Shown: positions 24,586-44,254 of the stretch, in pieces
Layout of the letters: each line of letters begins with the position of its first letter
Numbering within the stretch: position 1 is the first letter of the stretch
Source of the DNA: Oscillospiraceae bacterium
GTDB lineage: Bacteria > Bacillota > Clostridia > Oscillospirales > Oscillospiraceae
NCBI GenBank assembly: GCA_016282135.1
Contig: JAEEKA010000085.1
Coordinates: forward strand, 1-64,000
Direction of reading: 5' to 3'
DNA length: 64,000 nucleotides
Notes under the pieces: model-generated
What the model saw: only the letters and a program-made list of their open reading frames with translations
Told to the model about the DNA's origin: nothing
Database searches by the model: none
Made by a program: the position numbers and the translations under genes

Positions 24586-24611
24586 GGAACATATTCCTTT
24601 GTCCCTCGTCT
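24586..24611 (+). promoter_or_regulatory. ECF-sigma-like promoter GGAAC-N16-CGTCT
   Basis: GGAAC 24586-24590, CGTCT 24607-24611, 46 bp upstream of the serpin ATG. Confidence 0.6.
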
Positions 24612-24657: not shown

Positions 24658-25908
24658 ATGTTCAAGAGACTAACCAAGCTGATGCTTTGCCTGCTGCTGA
24701 TTGCGGCAATGGCGCTGAATCTCACAGCCTGCGTGGCAAAGGTTCAGGCCGCCGATCTGATGGACGGGATCAAGTCCAACACCCAGACAGGCTCCGTCAG
24801 CAAACCGGATGAAGGCCGCCAGGCCGCCGCCGCTGACTTCGCCCTGCGGCTGTTCCGGGCTGCCAACGAGAGCGGCAAGAGTACCCTGATCTCTCCCCTG
24901 TCCGTGCTCAGTGCCCTGTCCATGACCGCCAACGGCGCCAAGGGCGAAACCCTGGGCCAGATGGAGAAAACCCTGGGCATGACCCAGGCGGAGCTGAACG
25001 AATACTTCCTTTCCTACCGGAAGCTGCTGGAAGACGGCAAGAGCCTTCGGCTTGCCAATTCGATCTGGTTTCGGGATGGCTTTGCGGTCAACCGGGATTT
25101 CCTGCAGACCAACGCCGACTGCTACGGCGCGGACGCCTATCAGGCCCCCTTTGACAACAGCACCCTGAAGGACATCAACAACTGGGTCAACAACAAGACC
25201 GACGGGATGATCCCGGAGATTCTGGGCGAACTTTCCAAAGACACCGTGATGTGCCTGGTGAACGCCCTGGCCTTCGATTGCAAGTGGCAGGAGGAATACG
25301 AGGAGGACGACATCCGCAGCGGTGAATTCACCTGCGCCGACGGCAGCAAACGGACGGTGGACTTCCTGCACTCCGGGGAATCTGAATACCTGGAAACAGC
25401 CTATGCCACGGGCTTTCTCAGGCCCTACAAGGACAGCTGCTACGCCTTCGCCGCTCTGCTGCCCAAGGAGGGCGTCAGCCTGGAGCAGCTTCTGGCTGAT
25501 TTGGACGGCGTGGCCCTCCGGGACCTGCTGGAAAACCCGAAGTGGGAGTCCGTATCCGTGTCCTTACCCAAGTTTGAGACCAGCTACGACACCGAGCTTT
25601 CCCAGGTTCTGAAGGGCATGGGCATGGAGCTGCCCTTCAGCGAGCAGGCGGATTTCTCCGGTCTGGGCGGAACGGCAGGGGACGGAGTCCACATCAGCCG
25701 CGTTCTGCACAAGACCTTCCTGTCTGTGGACGAAACCGGCACCAAGGCCGCCGCGGCCACCGCAGTCATGATGGAAAAGGCCGCAGCGATTGACATAAGC
25801 TTCCATGAGGTGAATTTGGATCGTCCTTTCCTCTATATGGTGATTGACCGGGAAGCCAATCTGCCCCTGTTCCTCGGCACCATGCTGGACCCGACTCCGG
25901 GGGCGTAA
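24658..25908 (+). CDS. Serpin family lipoprotein (serpin 1)
   Basis: Lipobox NLTAC; NSIWFRDGFAVNRDFLQTNADCYGADAYQAPF, INNWVNNKTDGMIPEIL, hinge GTKAAAATAV, LDRPFLYMVIDREANLPLFLGTMLDP. Confidence 0.95.
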   Translation: MFKRLTKLMLCLLLIAAMALNLTACVAKVQAADLMDGIKSNTQTGSVSKPDEGRQAAAADFALRLFRAANESGKSTLISPLSVLSALSMTANGAKGETLGQMEKTLGMTQAELNEYFLSYRKLLEDGKSLRLANSIWFRDGFAVNRDFLQTNADCYGADAYQAPFDNSTLKDINNWVNNKTDGMIPEILGELSKDTVMCLVNALAFDCKWQEEYEEDDIRSGEFTCADGSKRTVDFLHSGESEYLETAYATGFLRPYKDSCYAFAALLPKEGVSLEQLLADLDGVALRDLLENPKWESVSVSLPKFETSYDTELSQVLKGMGMELPFSEQADFSGLGGTAGDGVHISRVLHKTFLSVDETGTKAAAATAVMMEKAAAIDISFHEVNLDRPFLYMVIDREANLPLFLGTMLDPTPGA

Positions 25909-35813: not shown

Positions 35814-35858
35814 TTGACATTTTCAGACTATCATGGTAGTATGGACTATAGAAATAGT
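35814..35858 (+). promoter_or_regulatory. blaI-like promoter with two dyad operators
   Basis: TTGACA 35814-35819, N17, TAGTAT 35837-35842; dyads ACTA-TCATGG-TAGT (35827-35840) and ACTAT-AGAA-ATAGT (35845-35858). Confidence 0.75.
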
Positions 35859-35871
35859 ATGGAGGGATACC

Positions 35872-36222
35872 ATGAAAGTTTTTGACAGTGAATTGAAGAT
35901 CATGGAGCTGATCTGGCAGCACGAGCCGGTCAGCGCGAAAGAACTGAGCCTGCTGGCGCGGCAGGAGATTGGCTGGAACAAGAACACCACCTACACGGTG
36001 ATCAAAAAGCTGATCGACAAGGCCTGCGTGCGGCGGGATGAGCCGGGCTTTGTGTGCTCCTCTCTGGTCACAAAGAGCGAGATTCAAAAAAGCGAGGCCA
36101 AGGGGCTGCTGGACCGGTTCTTCTCCGGTTCCAAAAAGGCGCTGTTTTCGGCGCTTTTGGAGGACGAGGACCTTTCCGACGCCGAGCTTGCCGAGCTGCG
36201 GGCCATGATCGACCGTCGGTGA
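35872..36222 (+). CDS. BlaI/MecI/CopY family transcriptional regulator
   Basis: SELKIMELIWQHEPVSAKELSLLARQEIGWNKNTTYTVIKKLIDKACVRRDEPGFVC. Confidence 0.92.
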   Translation: MKVFDSELKIMELIWQHEPVSAKELSLLARQEIGWNKNTTYTVIKKLIDKACVRRDEPGFVCSSLVTKSEIQKSEAKGLLDRFFSGSKKALFSALLEDEDLSDAELAELRAMIDRR

Positions 36223-36226
36223 GCCT

Positions 36227-37147
36227 ATGGACGGACTGTTTTACTGGCTGCTGAACATGAGCATCCTCGGCACCCTGACCGGAGCCGTGATCCTCCTGCT
36301 CCGGTTCGTCAGGCGAATCCGGCGGCGCTGGATCGTGATTCTGTGGGCAATTCCCCTGCTGCGCTTTTGGCTGCCGGTGAGCATCGGGGGGAAATACAGC
36401 CTGATGTCCCTTCTGTCCGGGTTCTCCACGAAAACGGTGGTGGTCTATCAAAGTCCGGGCGGGGAAAGGGTTTATTCCGCGATGAATTCCATCCAGGCCG
36501 CGGAGAGCTATTTCCCCATCACCTATCGGACCAATGTGCTGGAAGATGTGTTCCGCTGCGCCGCGCTGGTATGGGCCATTGTGGCGGCAGCCCTGATCCT
36601 CGCCCTGGGGATTCTGTACGTCTCCACCCTGTCGGAGCTCCGGGATGCGGAACGGCTCCGGGGCAAGGTGTATGTCTCCCCGAAGGTCACGGCCCCGGCG
36701 GTGTACGGGATTCTGCGGCCCCGGATTATTCTCCCCGCCTCCGCCGCGGCCTCGGAGGACCTGGAGCTGATCGTCCTGCACGAGGGGCGGCACATCCGCA
36801 GAGGGGACAATCTCTGGCGGATGCTCGCTTTTTTCACTGCCGCAATCCACTGGTTCAACCCGGCGATCTGGCTGTTCCTGAAGCTGTTTCTCTCCGACGC
36901 GGAAATCGCCTGCGATGAATCCGTTTTGTCCAGGCTTCCTGCCGATGACCACAGACGCTACGCCCACGCTCTGTTGAACGCCCGGACAGGAAAGACGGTG
37001 TTCGCCTCCGCCTTTGGCGGAGCCAAGGTCCGAACGCGAATTGAGCGGATCCTGTCCTTCCGAAGGATGACCGCCGCGTCAGGGATCGCCTTTGCGGTAT
37101 TGATTGCCGCCATCGCTTATTTCCTGCTGGCGAACGCGTCTGCATAA
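36227..37147 (+). CDS. M56 family (BlaR1/MecR1-like) membrane metallopeptidase
   Basis: HEGRHIRRGDNLWRML (HExxH), AIHWFNPAIWLFLKLFLSDAEIACDESVL; lacks a C-terminal penicillin-binding sensor domain. Confidence 0.9.
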   Translation: MDGLFYWLLNMSILGTLTGAVILLLRFVRRIRRRWIVILWAIPLLRFWLPVSIGGKYSLMSLLSGFSTKTVVVYQSPGGERVYSAMNSIQAAESYFPITYRTNVLEDVFRCAALVWAIVAAALILALGILYVSTLSELRDAERLRGKVYVSPKVTAPAVYGILRPRIILPASAAASEDLELIVLHEGRHIRRGDNLWRMLAFFTAAIHWFNPAIWLFLKLFLSDAEIACDESVLSRLPADDHRRYAHALLNARTGKTVFASAFGGAKVRTRIERILSFRRMTAASGIAFAVLIAAIAYFLLANASA

Positions 37148-38012: not shown

Positions 38013-38044
38013 ACGAAGTGCCGCAGAATACAGAGGTGATCAAT

Positions 38045-39034
38045 ATGCAAAAAAAGTTTGCGCGCTTTTGGCTGTTCTCTCTCGTCGCCGTGCTTGCGGC
38101 GTCCTTCTATCCGCTTCTCATGGGAGGCCGGGTCATTTCCGATATGCTTCGGGACGGCACGGTTCTCAAGGAGAACTATCCGAAGTACATCATTCCATAT
38201 ACGCCGATTGCAGTCGCTTTGATTCTGGGCGTGCTGCTGTTGCCGCTGTTTGTCAAGCTGATGAAGCGCTTCGCGGTGCTCGGCAGCTCGGCGCTGTCGG
38301 TCGGCGCATTTTTCGGGCTGGAGCTCCTGTTTGAGCGGAAGGTTGTCGTTACCTCAACGGAGACGGCGGCAACGCTTGCGGATTGGCAAATGTTTTTGTG
38401 CAGATACATCCCGCCGGAGGAATACGCGGGGGAAACAGTAACGACGATTCGTACCGAAACAGCAGTCGATCTCCTGATCGGAGATTACAACCCCGCTTTC
38501 AAGCTGCATTTCTATTTGATCTCCGTTGTGCTGATCCTGGCCATTCTGAACTGTATCTACGGCTTCGCGCAGATTGCCAAAACCGGCAATCCCGCCCGGA
38601 AAAAAGCGCTGATCCTGCAATCGGTTTCCGCGGCGCTCTTCCTGGGGCTTTGCATTCTGGCCTGCTTCACGGCCTTCTGGCGGGACGGCAGCATCTTGGT
38701 TTCGCCGCTGTCTGCATGCCTGATGTCGGTGTTCTTCATTCTGTTGGGCGTTACGGTCGGCCTGTTTTTCGGGTCCCTCCTGCTGGGAAAGGCCAAGGTC
38801 CTCTCCCGCCTTCTGCCCGCCGTCATCGCCTCGGCCACCACCCTTTTGATGTACGTGGGGGAAATGATTCTGCTGCACGGGCACCTGTACCGCTTCGGGA
38901 CCGGCTTTTTCTTCGACGGGCTTCCGGACATGGTACTGGCCCCCGCGGATCTTCTCGTCATTTTGGCCGCTGGGGGAATCACATGGCTCCTGACCCGGAT
39001 TGGAAATCCAAAACCAAGCGCCGTAACGGCGTAG
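38045..39034 (+). CDS. Hypothetical multi-pass membrane protein
   Basis: Several hydrophobic helices; no recognised family. Confidence 0.65.
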   Translation: MQKKFARFWLFSLVAVLAASFYPLLMGGRVISDMLRDGTVLKENYPKYIIPYTPIAVALILGVLLLPLFVKLMKRFAVLGSSALSVGAFFGLELLFERKVVVTSTETAATLADWQMFLCRYIPPEEYAGETVTTIRTETAVDLLIGDYNPAFKLHFYLISVVLILAILNCIYGFAQIAKTGNPARKKALILQSVSAALFLGLCILACFTAFWRDGSILVSPLSACLMSVFFILLGVTVGLFFGSLLLGKAKVLSRLLPAVIASATTLLMYVGEMILLHGHLYRFGTGFFFDGLPDMVLAPADLLVILAAGGITWLLTRIGNPKPSAVTA

Positions 39035-39112
39035 ATTCAGCCGTCTGGCGTCCTTTACACCGCGGATTCGGAGCATGGCTCCGGGTCCGCGGACTTTTTT
39101 CAAAAAATATGG

Positions 39113-39138
39113 GGAACCGTAAGGAGTTTTCAGCGTCT
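39113..39138 (+). promoter_or_regulatory. ECF-sigma-like promoter GGAAC-N16-CGTCT
   Basis: GGAAC 39113-39117, CGTCT 39134-39138, upstream of the sigma factor gene. Confidence 0.6.
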
Positions 39139-39194
39139 CAATTGTATAAAAGATGCGCGGTCAGACGTGAGCGCAGCAATACAGGAGGAACCCT

Positions 39195-39740
39195 ATGGAC
39201 AACGGTACAAGCAGCTACCGCCGTTTTCTGGATGGCGATGATCACGCCGTCGACGAGATCATGGAGGAGTTGTTCTTCCCGCTGGTCTTTTTCATCAACC
39301 GCTATGTGCAGGACGTTCCCGCCGCGGAGGACATCGCGTTGGACGCCATGACAGAGCTGTTTGTACATCCCCGCCGCTACAACTTCAAAACCTCTCTGAA
39401 AACGTATCTGTTCATGCTGGGGAAGAGTCGGGCGCTGAATTACTGCAAGCGTCGGCGGATCCTGCCCATGGAGGAGCTGTCCGAAGCCCTCCCGGCCCAG
39501 CAGGCGGAGCTGGAGGATCGGGCCCTGGACGACGAGCGAAAGCGGGTGGTCAGCCAGGCCCTGGCCCGGCTCCCGGAAGAGATGCGGGTGGCCGTCCACC
39601 TGGTTTTCTTTGCGGAATTGAGCTATGAGGAGACGGCCCGGGTGATGAAAAAGAACCGCAAGCAGGTGGACAACCTGCTCTACCGCGCGAAGAAGGAGCT
39701 TCGCGGGATGCTCGGAGAGGAGGGCCGGCAGCTGTTATGA
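39195..39740 (+). CDS. RNA polymerase ECF-type sigma factor
   Basis: HAVDEIMEELFFPLVFFINRYVQDVPAAEDIALDAMTELF (region 2) and LPEEMRVAVHLVFFAELSYEETARVMKKNRKQVDNLLYRAKKELR (region 4). Confidence 0.92.
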   Translation: MDNGTSSYRRFLDGDDHAVDEIMEELFFPLVFFINRYVQDVPAAEDIALDAMTELFVHPRRYNFKTSLKTYLFMLGKSRALNYCKRRRILPMEELSEALPAQQAELEDRALDDERKRVVSQALARLPEEMRVAVHLVFFAELSYEETARVMKKNRKQVDNLLYRAKKELRGMLGEEGRQLL

Positions 39741-40282
39741 GAGAAATCGACGAATACACCGCGGAGCTGCGCCAGAGAATCGCCCAAAAGCTGGAGCAGC
39801 GGCGGTTGGCCCGGAAACGGCTGGCAGCCTGCGCCGCCTCTCTGGTCCTGGTGGTTGGAATCACCGCGGCAGTGCTCCTGCCGGGCCTCCGCCCCGGAAC
39901 AGACGGTCGATCGGGAGAGGCCAGGGAAAGCACGGAGGCCGCCCCCGTCAGTCTCTGCGGCGCGGAGCTCTGGCGGATGGATCAAAGCGGTCAATGGGAG
40001 CGTTCGGACAGGCAGCCCCGGGCCCCTGCGGGTTTGAGCGTCTGGATTCGCAGCGCTGACCCCCTTGCCTACGCGGAGTCGGATGGCGATTGCCCGGTGG
40101 ATGACAGTCCTGAAACTGCCAGCGAACAGGAGCCTGTCCGGATTCTGCTGACCGATGAGAACGGCATTCAGATGGAATACCTTTTTGACGGCGCGGCGTT
40201 GATCCGATTGCCGGAAAACCGGCGGGTGGCCCTGACCGACCAACAAATCAAAGAGCTGAAGTCACTGTTGTTTGAGGACTGA
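39737..40282 (+). CDS. Single-TM protein, putative anti-sigma factor
   Basis: ATGA overlap with the sigma gene; short cytosolic N-terminus, one TM (LAACAASLVLVVGITAAVLL), extracytoplasmic C-terminus. Confidence 0.6.
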   Translation: MREIDEYTAELRQRIAQKLEQRRLARKRLAACAASLVLVVGITAAVLLPGLRPGTDGRSGEARESTEAAPVSLCGAELWRMDQSGQWERSDRQPRAPAGLSVWIRSADPLAYAESDGDCPVDDSPETASEQEPVRILLTDENGIQMEYLFDGAALIRLPENRRVALTDQQIKELKSLLFED

Positions 40283-40297
40283 AAGGAGAACGTGAAC

Positions 40298-41620
40298 ATG
40301 AACGTGAAACAATGGAAGATGAAGCGAGCGCTCTGCCTGCTGCTGGCCGCTGTGCTGCTCAGCTTCGGCGGCTGCACCGCCGCCAACCAGCCCGGCTCCC
40401 CCGGCGGAACGGGCGGCTCTACCCAGCCGGCCGCCCCGGCAGTCCGGACGCGCTCCGTGGACCTGATGGCCGAGGTCAATCCCACGGCTGACACCCGGAA
40501 GACCTCCGGCATGAGCCCGGAAGCCGCCGCGGCCGCGGCGGACTTTGCCCTGCGGCTCTTCCGGGCGGGCAGCAAGGCCGGAGAAAACAGCCTGATCTCC
40601 CCCCTGTCCGTGCTCAGCGCCCTGGCGATGACCGCCAACGGGGCCAAAGGCGAGACCCTGGAGCAGATGGAACGCACCCTGGGGCTGAGCCGGGAGCAGT
40701 ACAACGAATTCTTCCGGGGCTATCTGGCCGCCCTGGGCGAGGACAGCAAAAACGCACTGCGGCTGGCCAACTCCGTCTGGTTCACCAACGATCCTCGCTT
40801 TACCGTGAATCAGGATTTTTTGCAGACCAACGCCGATTTCTACGGCGCAGGGGTCTACCAGGCTCCCTTTGACAATACGACTCTCCGAGACATCAACAAC
40901 TGGGTCAAGGAGAAAACCGCCGGAATGATCCCCGAGATTCTGGACGAGATCCCGCTGGAGGCGGTGATGTATCTGGTCAACGCCCTGGCCTTTGAGGGCA
41001 AGTGGATGACGCCGTATAACAAATATTCCGTTGCGCCGGGGGAGTTTATCGCGGCAAACGGGAACGAGCGAAGCGTGGATTTCATGTACGCCGAGGAACA
41101 CGCCTATCTGGAGGACGAAAACGCCACAGGCTTCCTCAAGTATTATGAGGGCGGGCGCTATGCCTTCGCCGCTCTGCTGCCCAGGGAGGGCGTCAGCGTG
41201 GAGCAGTACCTGGCCGCCCTGGACGGAGCCGCCCTGCGGGCCATGCTGACAAATCCCCGGCCCGAGGCAGTGCAGACCTCCCTGCCGAAGTTCGAGGCCG
41301 CCTGGTCCGGGGAACTTTCCGAGCTTTTGAAGTCCATGGGCATGACTGTCCCCTTCGACAGCAGCGCGGCGGATTTCTCCGGTCTGGGCAGCTCCACCGG
41401 CGGGAATATCTTCATCAACCGGGTGCTCCACAAGACTTTTATCTCCGTGGCGGAGCAGGGCACCCGGGCCGGCGCGGCTACCGCGGTGGAAATGACTGAC
41501 GAGGCCGTTATGGAGATAACCCGTCAGGTCTATCTGGATCGTCCCTTCGTCTATATGCTGGTTGACTGCGAGACAGGCCTTCCCTTCTTCATCGGTACCA
41601 TGCTGGATCCCGCAGGCTGA
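40298..41620 (+). CDS. Serpin family lipoprotein (serpin 2)
   Basis: Lipobox LLSFGGC; NSVWFTNDPRFTVNQDFLQTNADFYGAGVYQAPF, hinge GTRAGAATAV, LDRPFVYMLVDCETGLPFFIGTMLDP. Confidence 0.95.
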   Translation: MNVKQWKMKRALCLLLAAVLLSFGGCTAANQPGSPGGTGGSTQPAAPAVRTRSVDLMAEVNPTADTRKTSGMSPEAAAAAADFALRLFRAGSKAGENSLISPLSVLSALAMTANGAKGETLEQMERTLGLSREQYNEFFRGYLAALGEDSKNALRLANSVWFTNDPRFTVNQDFLQTNADFYGAGVYQAPFDNTTLRDINNWVKEKTAGMIPEILDEIPLEAVMYLVNALAFEGKWMTPYNKYSVAPGEFIAANGNERSVDFMYAEEHAYLEDENATGFLKYYEGGRYAFAALLPREGVSVEQYLAALDGAALRAMLTNPRPEAVQTSLPKFEAAWSGELSELLKSMGMTVPFDSSAADFSGLGSSTGGNIFINRVLHKTFISVAEQGTRAGAATAVEMTDEAVMEITRQVYLDRPFVYMLVDCETGLPFFIGTMLDPAG

Positions 41621-41635
41621 TACCTTTCCAGATAA

Positions 41636-41678
41636 ACAGACAGTCCCTTGGGAGAACCGCTCCCAAGGGACTGTCTGT
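41636..41678. terminator. Bidirectional terminator hairpin ACAGACAGTCCCTTGGGAG-aaccg-CTCCCAAGGGACTGTCTGT
   Basis: Perfect 19-bp arms between convergent genes. Confidence 0.8.
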
Positions 41679-41695
41679 CACGAACAATCAAGAAC

Positions 41696-44254
41696 TCAAA
41701 GCACCAGAAGGATCAGCAGACTGACGATCAAAAACGCCAAAACGCCCCATGCGCTCAGCGCCGTCTTTGTCCGGACGCCATTTGGGGAAATATTCCGCTC
41801 CCGGACGCCGAAGAAGAACACCACGGCGCCGAAGAGGGAGAGAATCAGCAGCAGGGCCACGTAAAGCAGCAGGCCGAACACCGCCGGCTTGGTGATGACC
41901 TCCGCCAGCTCCACCTCCCGCAGGGCCAGATTGGGCACAGCCCTCGCCGCCAGGGTCAGCAAGACGGGAAGCACCGCCGAGGACAGGGTGTTGATGAGGA
42001 TATGAAGGGCAGTGGAATACCGGAGCTTTCCGGTTTTCAGGTACACGTACCCGAACACAAGCCCCAGCAGGAAGGCATAGCAGACCTGGTTCACCGACCG
42101 GTGGAACAGGGCGAAGAACAGTGCGGAAACGATCAGCGCGGCCTTCTCCCCATAGGGCAGCAGCCGATTCAGTACGCAGCGCCGGAAGACAAATTCCTCC
42201 ATAATCGGAGCCGCGACGGCCACCACCGCCACCTGGAGTGCCGGAAACGCCGTCGTTCCCGTGTCCGCCGCCTGGAGGCCAAGCCGCCGGTAGAACAGCA
42301 CGCCGGTGATCCTTTGCAGCAGCAGGCCCACGATGTTCCCCGCGTACATGACGAAGAAGCAGGCCGGGATCAGCACCAGAAACTCCCGGAGGCGGAGGGT
42401 GCGCCGGGGGAGAATTGTCTTCTCCCGCTGCCTTCCCACCGTCAGCAAGAACACCGGTAGCCCCACCGCATAGATGGGCAGGTACAGGGCGATCAGCGGA
42501 TCCAAGTCCATCCGCGACAAAACAAACTGGGCAGCCAGGACTGCCACGGACATCAGGCTCAGCGCCAGGGCAGCTCTGGTATAGGTCTTTCCCACGGTCT
42601 TCCGCTTGGGCTCAGTGGTCCTGTCCCGGACGGCTTTCCCTTTGCAGGGGTAGAGCCACACGCCGGTCAGTCCCAGGAACATCCCGCCGAACAGCACATT
42701 CAGAATCGTAACCAGAATGAACCCTGCCGCGCTGTGACCGTAATTGATTCCGTAGCTCAACACCACGCCGTCAAAGATCAGACCCACGTACAGCAGAATG
42801 ATCTGAATCACCTGCTTGAAGCTTACGCCCACCGACGAGGGAATGGAAACGTCCGTGAACACCCCGGAGGCGCTGGCAAAGAAATCCAGCGACATGAGCA
42901 TGGGCAGATACAGCAGTCCCCGCAGCGGCGGGAAGCCGGCCGCCGCGCTGCCGATCACCAGCGGGAAAAACACGTCCAGCGCGCAGTTGCAGCTTCCGCC
43001 CAGGAGAGAGTAGAACAGCTTGGACCAGATGGGCTCTGGCTGCAGCAGGAAGGTATCCTTGCGGATGTCCTCCGTGACGGGAGACACAATGGTGCGGAAA
43101 AACACCATCACCGCCAGCACCAGGATCGGGATATAGTCAATGGGCTTATCCATGAAATGCCGGACGTAGAGTCCCCCCGCCAGAGCCGCGAAGCTGTAGG
43201 TGAGCATGGTTTTGGAGATGAAAAACCGGGAGAAACGCCGCCGGTTATGGAAGACCCGGTAGAAATATACGCTGCTTCCGATACCGTGACGGAAGCCGTC
43301 CCAGGTCACCGTCCGCTCCTTGGTGCGCATCATCAGCAGGGACGCGCCCTCGCTGTTCACAGCCTCATGCAGCAGCGAAATCTCTTGGGCGGAGCGCAGA
43401 GTCTCCTCGTAATAGTCCGCCGGCAGCTTCCGCACCGTCAGAATCAGGATCACGATCAAGGCGGCGCTCATGCCCAGCAGGCAGAGGGAGAGTCCGGTCT
43501 CTCCCTCCAGGGCGAACAGCATAGTCCCCTTGACCCAGCCCCAGACAGGAATCCATCTGGTTACCGGCGCGTTGAAAAACCGCTGGGCCGTTTGGAACAT
43601 GTCCTCGTCGCCGCCGGCTTTGTACATGCGGTAGAAGGCAAAACCCATCACCGCCAGCAGGGCAAAGATGACCCACCGCAGATTCCTGCGGAAGAAGGGG
43701 TGGCGGCTGCCCAACTCATAGATCAGAATTTTCAGCAGCGAACAGAACGCCAGGGTCAGACACCAAGCCAGCAGAATAGACAGGGTTCCGTAGACTGTTA
43801 AATCATACTTCCCGGCCAAAAACGGCAGCCGGATCGCAAGAAGCAGTCCCGCCAGAATGGGAAGCTCCAGGGTATTGGTCACCCGGAACGCCAGCACCGC
43901 CTGGGGTGACAGATCGCTGGCAAAGAGCAGATTCACGTCGGCGTGCTTGAACATGGTGGAAACACTTCGCTCTGCGCCGATGATCTGAATCACCAGCAGG
44001 CCAAGAACCATAATCCCCGCAGCCAGCTCCAGAAAATTCAACCCGCTCATGCCGGTGGCTTCGAAAATCTCCTCCAGGCTTGTGGGCAGTTCACTGTTCG
44101 ACTCGGCAAGGCGGCGCAGATACCAGCGGATGCCGTAGAAAAGGATCCCGCCAACCCCTGCCAGCCCGAGAAAGAGGTAGAATGCCCAGGTGCGGATAAA
44201 GGAGCGAATCTGATTCCAGGTGGTATGGAAAAAATAGTAGAAAAACATCCGCAT
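41696..44254 (-). CDS. ABC exporter permease fused to a C-terminal CPBP intramembrane protease domain
   Basis: N-terminal ~560 aa multi-TM permease; C-terminal PIMEEFVFRRCVLNRLLP, FFALFHRSVNQ, TALHILINT (CPBP motifs) in one 852-aa ORF. Confidence 0.85.
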   Translation of the reverse strand: MRMFFYYFFHTTWNQIRSFIRTWAFYLFLGLAGVGGILFYGIRWYLRRLAESNSELPTSLEEIFEATGMSGLNFLELAAGIMVLGLLVIQIIGAERSVSTMFKHADVNLLFASDLSPQAVLAFRVTNTLELPILAGLLLAIRLPFLAGKYDLTVYGTLSILLAWCLTLAFCSLLKILIYELGSRHPFFRRNLRWVIFALLAVMGFAFYRMYKAGGDEDMFQTAQRFFNAPVTRWIPVWGWVKGTMLFALEGETGLSLCLLGMSAALIVILILTVRKLPADYYEETLRSAQEISLLHEAVNSEGASLLMMRTKERTVTWDGFRHGIGSSVYFYRVFHNRRRFSRFFISKTMLTYSFAALAGGLYVRHFMDKPIDYIPILVLAVMVFFRTIVSPVTEDIRKDTFLLQPEPIWSKLFYSLLGGSCNCALDVFFPLVIGSAAAGFPPLRGLLYLPMLMSLDFFASASGVFTDVSIPSSVGVSFKQVIQIILLYVGLIFDGVVLSYGINYGHSAAGFILVTILNVLFGGMFLGLTGVWLYPCKGKAVRDRTTEPKRKTVGKTYTRAALALSLMSVAVLAAQFVLSRMDLDPLIALYLPIYAVGLPVFLLTVGRQREKTILPRRTLRLREFLVLIPACFFVMYAGNIVGLLLQRITGVLFYRRLGLQAADTGTTAFPALQVAVVAVAAPIMEEFVFRRCVLNRLLPYGEKAALIVSALFFALFHRSVNQVCYAFLLGLVFGYVYLKTGKLRYSTALHILINTLSSAVLPVLLTLAARAVPNLALREVELAEVITKPAVFGLLLYVALLLILSLFGAVVFFFGVRERNISPNGVRTKTALSAWGVLAFLIVSLLILLVL

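Follow-up and report, generated by a model that had tools for sequence, protein, structure and literature searches.

Positions 39113-41620 of the window (the whole 64,000-nt stretch of Oscillospiraceae DNA that was analyzed) hold what is, at a probability of about 0.6, an operon of an ECF sigma factor, a membrane anti-sigma factor and a serpin, autoregulated from one promoter element (P1), linked by a second (P2) to the regulon of a SigW-like ECF sigma factor, and with proteases as the most likely signal. In the mechanism we propose, the single-TM protein would keep the sigma factor at the membrane until that protein is inactivated by a signal from outside the cell, for which proteases attacking the envelope are the likeliest source. 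Once released, the sigma factor would direct transcription of the operon that encodes it at P1 (AAGGA-N17/18-YGTATAA), thereby raising the level of the serpin, which would be lipid-anchored outside the cell and trap serine proteases there. The overlapping P2 (GGAAC-N16-CGTCT) would join the operon to a wider envelope-stress regulon of the SigW-like ECF sigma factor that includes stand-alone serpins. The evidence throughout consists of sequence and predicted structure, mainly from fragmented metagenome assemblies; the source genome, that of a herbivore-gut Oscillospiraceae bacterium, comprises 2.5 Mb in 120 contigs (completeness 85.6, contamination 4.4). Gene starts and class labels were derived by script and include a few miscalls, e.g. 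the start of L180. The features of the window are summarized in Table 1.

Table 1. Genes, promoter elements and hairpins of the serpin operon and of the second serpin gene in the window.
Feature	Positions	Strand	Basis
Terminator-like hairpin of the upstream gene	39060..39092	+	15-pair stem, then T run
GGAAC-N16-CGTCT element (P2)	39113..39138	+	Exact match
AAGGAGTTT-N14-GTATAA element (P1)	39121..39149	+	Conserved in 78/81 clade-A loci
Imperfect leader hairpin GCGCGGTCAGACGTGAGCGC	39155..39174	+	Sequence; kept in relatives
ECF sigma factor (clade A), 181 aa	39195..39740	+	Pfam Sigma70_r2 + Sigma70_r4_2
Probable anti-sigma factor (cytoplasmic N-terminus, one TM helix, small ectodomain)	39737..40282	+	ATGA overlap, TM, conservation
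Serpin lipoprotein, hinge EQGTRAGAAT	40292..41620	+	PF00079, E 8e-85
15-bp inverted repeat	41640..41674	.	Sequence; part detected on - strand by scan
Second GGAAC-N16-CGTCT element	24586..24611	+	Upstream of second serpin gene
Second serpin lipoprotein, stand-alone	24658..25908	+	62% identical to first (window operon) serpin

The gene order of the original prediction, an ECF sigma gene overlapped by the gene of a single-TM protein and followed by a serpin lipoprotein gene, was recovered in full. The end of the sigma gene and the start of the single-TM gene share the ATGA at 39737-39740, and the predicted distance of about 15 nt from the anti-sigma stop to the serpin start holds for the ATG at 40298; the alternative GTG at 40292 lies 9 nt past the stop. 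Sigma70_r2 (residues 32-88) and Sigma70_r4_2 (residues 119-169) are the only Pfam domains of the sigma factor, both above cut-off, and regions 2 and 4 alone within about 180 residues are what defines an ECF sigma factor. The terminator-like hairpin sets the operon apart from the upstream gene (38018-39034), and the operon probably ends at the inverted repeat, which separates the serpin gene from the convergently oriented ABC-exporter gene and has a T-rich tail on the - strand. Together, the two structures suggest a three-gene transcription unit. The exporter gene (41696-44254, - strand) encodes a single protein with an ABC exporter domain and a Rce1-like CAAX protease domain, and further upstream of the operon, at 35833-37147, a BlaI-type repressor gene adjoins that of an M56/BlaR1-type sensor (both by Pfam).

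The single-TM protein is probably an anti-sigma factor that binds the sigma factor, to judge from its position and architecture: its gene adjoins the sigma gene, and it has the single N-terminal TM helix expected of a membrane anti-sigma factor. Its N-terminus and its C-terminal region are conserved, and the predicted model has a helix at residues 2-47. No Pfam or NCBIfam family was matched above cut-off, known anti-sigma families included, and a fold search with the ectodomain gave no significant structural match, with weak hits to subtilisin inhibitors at E 0.4-0.8. In the serpin, a lipobox (...LLSFGGC) precedes a PF00079 domain of 360 aa, whose closest solved structure is that of tengpin (2pef, E 4e-101). 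The hinge is of the canonical inhibitory type, with Thr at P14 and small residues at P12-P9, as in most operon-linked serpins (P14 Thr in 37/41 and small P12-P9 residues in 36/41, a few of the 41 rows being partial or misparsed). Tengpin, miropin and the siropins share the serpin domain, and to our knowledge none of them has an ECF linkage or an anti-sigma fusion.

A search for the sigma factor across 396 genomes of the order defined a compact clade A with members in several families. Orthologs are about 56-81% identical to the window sigma factor, and most clade-A members from this search about 55-68%. When longer neighbourhoods were used, a serpin gene followed on the same strand at 18/40 clade-A loci, a slightly biased count since five of the 40 were first reached via their serpin, vs 2/20 loci of more distantly related control ECF sigma factors. 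A separate search of named genomes, a set that overlaps the 396 in part and shares some genomes with it, gave 80 orthologs, titled mainly Oscillospiraceae, Clostridia and Lachnospiraceae and mostly sampled from the gut or rumen of goat, sheep, deer, buffalo, yak and comparable hosts. In 66/80 of these orthologs the ATGA overlap is preserved, and 71/75 overlapping partner proteins have an N-terminal TM helix. Where enough downstream DNA was available, a serpin lies within 2.5 kb of the sigma gene in 35 of 70 orthologs, 33 times as a separate protein and twice as an anti-sigma-serpin fusion; these ortholog counts are not phylogenetically independent. The gene order is thus kept in relatives, and the lack of synteny that would have counted against the original prediction was not found. 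That the serpin is a passenger, co-transcribed through chance gene order and without a functional output role, is very improbable: serpins of this group do also occur outside sigma operons and change contexts on the serpin tree, but recurrence in half of the 70 loci, the two clade-A fusions and the intact inhibitory hinge all argue against it.

The serpin is the commonest recognized cargo of clade A; about half of the orthologs carry other cargo or none that is recognizable, so the serpin is not the sole output. The alternative cargo at six loci (L087, L089, L091, L101, L106, and L110) consists of proteins sharing a KPVIYLYPEEETEVSVKL-type stretch. By Pfam, one such protein contains DUF3221, another that was scanned has no significant family, and most alternative cargo is likewise without a family.

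We also found a new arrangement, in which an ECF sigma gene is followed by a gene encoding an anti-sigma-like N-terminus, a TM helix and a serpin in one protein. Within clade A, the second gene has this form in two loci (L095/L309 and L097/L323). On the serpin tree, L309 groups with the operon serpins (support 99/90 with L315) and L323 has a different, less well supported position, a pattern that indicates separate fusions. Fused proteins are the norm in a second ECF clade, 17% identical to the window sigma factor. A script assigned an overlapping preceding ORF to 18 of the 22 TM-type serpins, and those ORFs that were inspected end like sigma region 4. The source genome itself has two second-clade fusions (C104 and C86). 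For C104, Pfam confirms the sigma factor by region 2 and places the serpin at residues 125-478, and the AlphaFold model (pLDDT 78) has a long helix at 33-57 in addition to short helices at the N-terminus; its serpin fold is closest to tengpin, and its reactive loop is of low confidence. Since a serpin is joined to an anti-sigma-like protein in two ECF clades, the inhibitor itself is linked to signalling. The fusions strengthen the protease-response function that we infer for the window operon, and together with the kept operon linkage they suggest a sigma switch through which these bacteria detect protease attack and respond to it.

A more specific reading, which we offer as tentative, is that serpins are sensor domains of anti-sigma factors. 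In the fusions, where an ATGA joins the ECF sigma gene to that of an N-terminal TM protein with a serpin at its end, an outside protease would cut the reactive loop, the large rearrangement of the serpin that ensues would release the sigma factor, and the matching effectors would be the stand-alone serpin lipoproteins. Hinges in the second-clade fusions are altered (P14 is Val, Ile or Cys and P9 is Tyr or Phe, L036 being the one outlier), which might fit a sensor rather than a trap, and this difference may set them apart from the operon-linked serpins as traps. That serpin ectodomains would sense proteases is argued by analogy with two known systems. In SigV/RsiV of Bacillus subtilis, likewise an ECF sigma factor with its anti-sigma factor, RsiV itself binds lysozyme and is hence receptor and sensor (PMC4183432), a precedent for an anti-sigma factor that binds the attacking enzyme. 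Unlike RsiV, the window protein has no Pfam match to an RsiV-type ectodomain, and in Oscillospiraceae a serpin takes the place of the lysozyme-binding domain and also occurs as a separate lipoprotein. The RsgI anti-sigma factors of cellulolytic Clostridia similarly have exchangeable sensing ectodomains (PMC12484212, PMC3413522). Those ectodomains are carbohydrate-binding and the partner is SigI, whereas here the partner is an ECF sigma factor, the fused ectodomain is a serpin, and the window protein has no Pfam match to an RsgI-type domain. The serpin of Bifidobacterium breve is protease-inducible via a two-component system (Alvarez-Martin 2012, cited in PMC8012564). There, too, serpin expression is coupled to a neighbouring signal system that responds to proteases, in that case a two-component system of an actinobacterium rather than an ECF sigma/anti-sigma pair. 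A review of bacterial serpins stresses how scarce data on their regulation and role are (PMC6718151), and no link between ECF sigma factors and serpins was found in the literature that we searched by full text and judged in part by title and abstract. In gut Oscillospiraceae and their relatives, serpins look like products of ECF sigma regulons and, where fused, are probably the sensor domains of anti-sigma factors. If true, uncultured gut bacteria would have an envelope response that senses proteases, the conformational switch of serpins would have a new use, and there would be specific promoters and proteins to test.

Two promoter-like elements overlap upstream of the window sigma gene, of which P1 is far more conserved. 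The P1 pattern, [AT]AGGA-N17/18-GTATAA, is present at 78/81 clade-A loci, usually 40-48 nt ahead of the sigma start codon and with a spacer of 18 in 55 loci and 17 in 23, counts from related genomes obtained with patterns that were chosen after inspecting part of the data. A pattern search of the whole source genome gave three occurrences, each before a copy of the clade-A sigma gene. Confined in this genome to copies of its sigma gene, P1 is probably autoregulatory, serving only its own operon and presumably read by the clade-A sigma factor itself. Two further clade-A sigma copies, each preceded by P1, lie at contig ends of G000 (C93:1-525 and C60:3687-3881) and are either paralogous modules or strain variants.

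P2, the GGAAC-N16-CGTCT element of the original prediction, is indeed an exact match upstream of the sigma gene. Two copies occur in the window, where shuffled sequence would be expected to give 0.05, and the coding region of another serpin starts 46 bp past the end of the second copy. In a pattern search of the source genome, four of the six serpin loci have the motif: besides the window operon, these are three stand-alone serpins, including the second serpin gene of the window. Across 21 genomes, the core GAAC-N16-CGTC precedes 28/35 stand-alone serpin lipoprotein genes vs 3/398 other genes (Fisher p 3e-34, relatedness ignored; the motif was defined on partly the same data). With all 12 unclassified serpin matches added, five of which have the motif, the count becomes 33/47; none of the 22 TM-type serpin genes is preceded by it. 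ECF-type control of serpins therefore appears to reach wider than was proposed, but the accompanying claim that the adjacent sigma factor reads this motif and thereby regulates the serpin is unlikely to hold. In its favour, the motif lies in the promoter region of that sigma factor in the window and four relatives, and at the source-genome sites that were examined it never lies directly upstream of any other sigma gene. However, these five are the only cases among 81 clade-A promoter regions, the motif being missing from the other 76, and in most genomes of the genus whose serpins carry the motif, among them G021 at 100% completeness, the clade-A sigma factor was undetected.

The motif instead tracks a SigW-like ECF sigma factor with a zf-HC2 anti-sigma partner. 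In 27/30 genomes it is kept near the end of the SigW-like gene, just before the zf-HC2 anti-sigma gene; SigW-like loci with such an internal promoter-like element are L152 and L232-L261. Protein-coding constraint is unlikely to be the whole explanation for a motif inside this gene, since it stands in a different frame in L255 and beyond the stop codon in L258. The simplest reading of this arrangement would be an internal promoter at the locus of the sigma factor that reads P2. The SigW-like sigma factor, encoded elsewhere, is thus a likelier reader than the adjacent one. It resembles SigW/RsiW-type systems in its zinc-finger partner and differs from them by having serpin genes in its predicted regulon. 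Other P2 sites of the source genome precede DUF4349, PBP-like and other lipoprotein-like genes. With P2 at stand-alone serpins, at the SigW-like locus and at these genes, serpins in Oscillospiraceae would be part of a wider ECF regulon, to which the window operon appears to be joined in this genus.

SigW-type regulons are general envelope regulons, and the operon may accordingly respond to cell-wall or membrane stress in general (antibiotics, bacteriocins), with the serpin as one of several protective outputs and proteases not the signal. We regard this as the less probable explanation, although a serious one: non-serpin or unrecognized cargo in half of the orthologous loci and the range of genes behind P2 speak for it, but the serpin is the leading recognized cargo of clade A, and the serpin fusions to anti-sigma-like proteins occur in two ECF clades.

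Directly 3' of P1 lies the leader hairpin, of the GGGGTCAGACGTGACCCC type, for which a scan of the window gave no Rfam family. It is present in many relatives, where pair-preserving variants occur (L265-L344), among them GCGGCCAGACGTGGCCGC, GGAACAGACGTGTTCC, and GCGCCGGACGCGGCGC.
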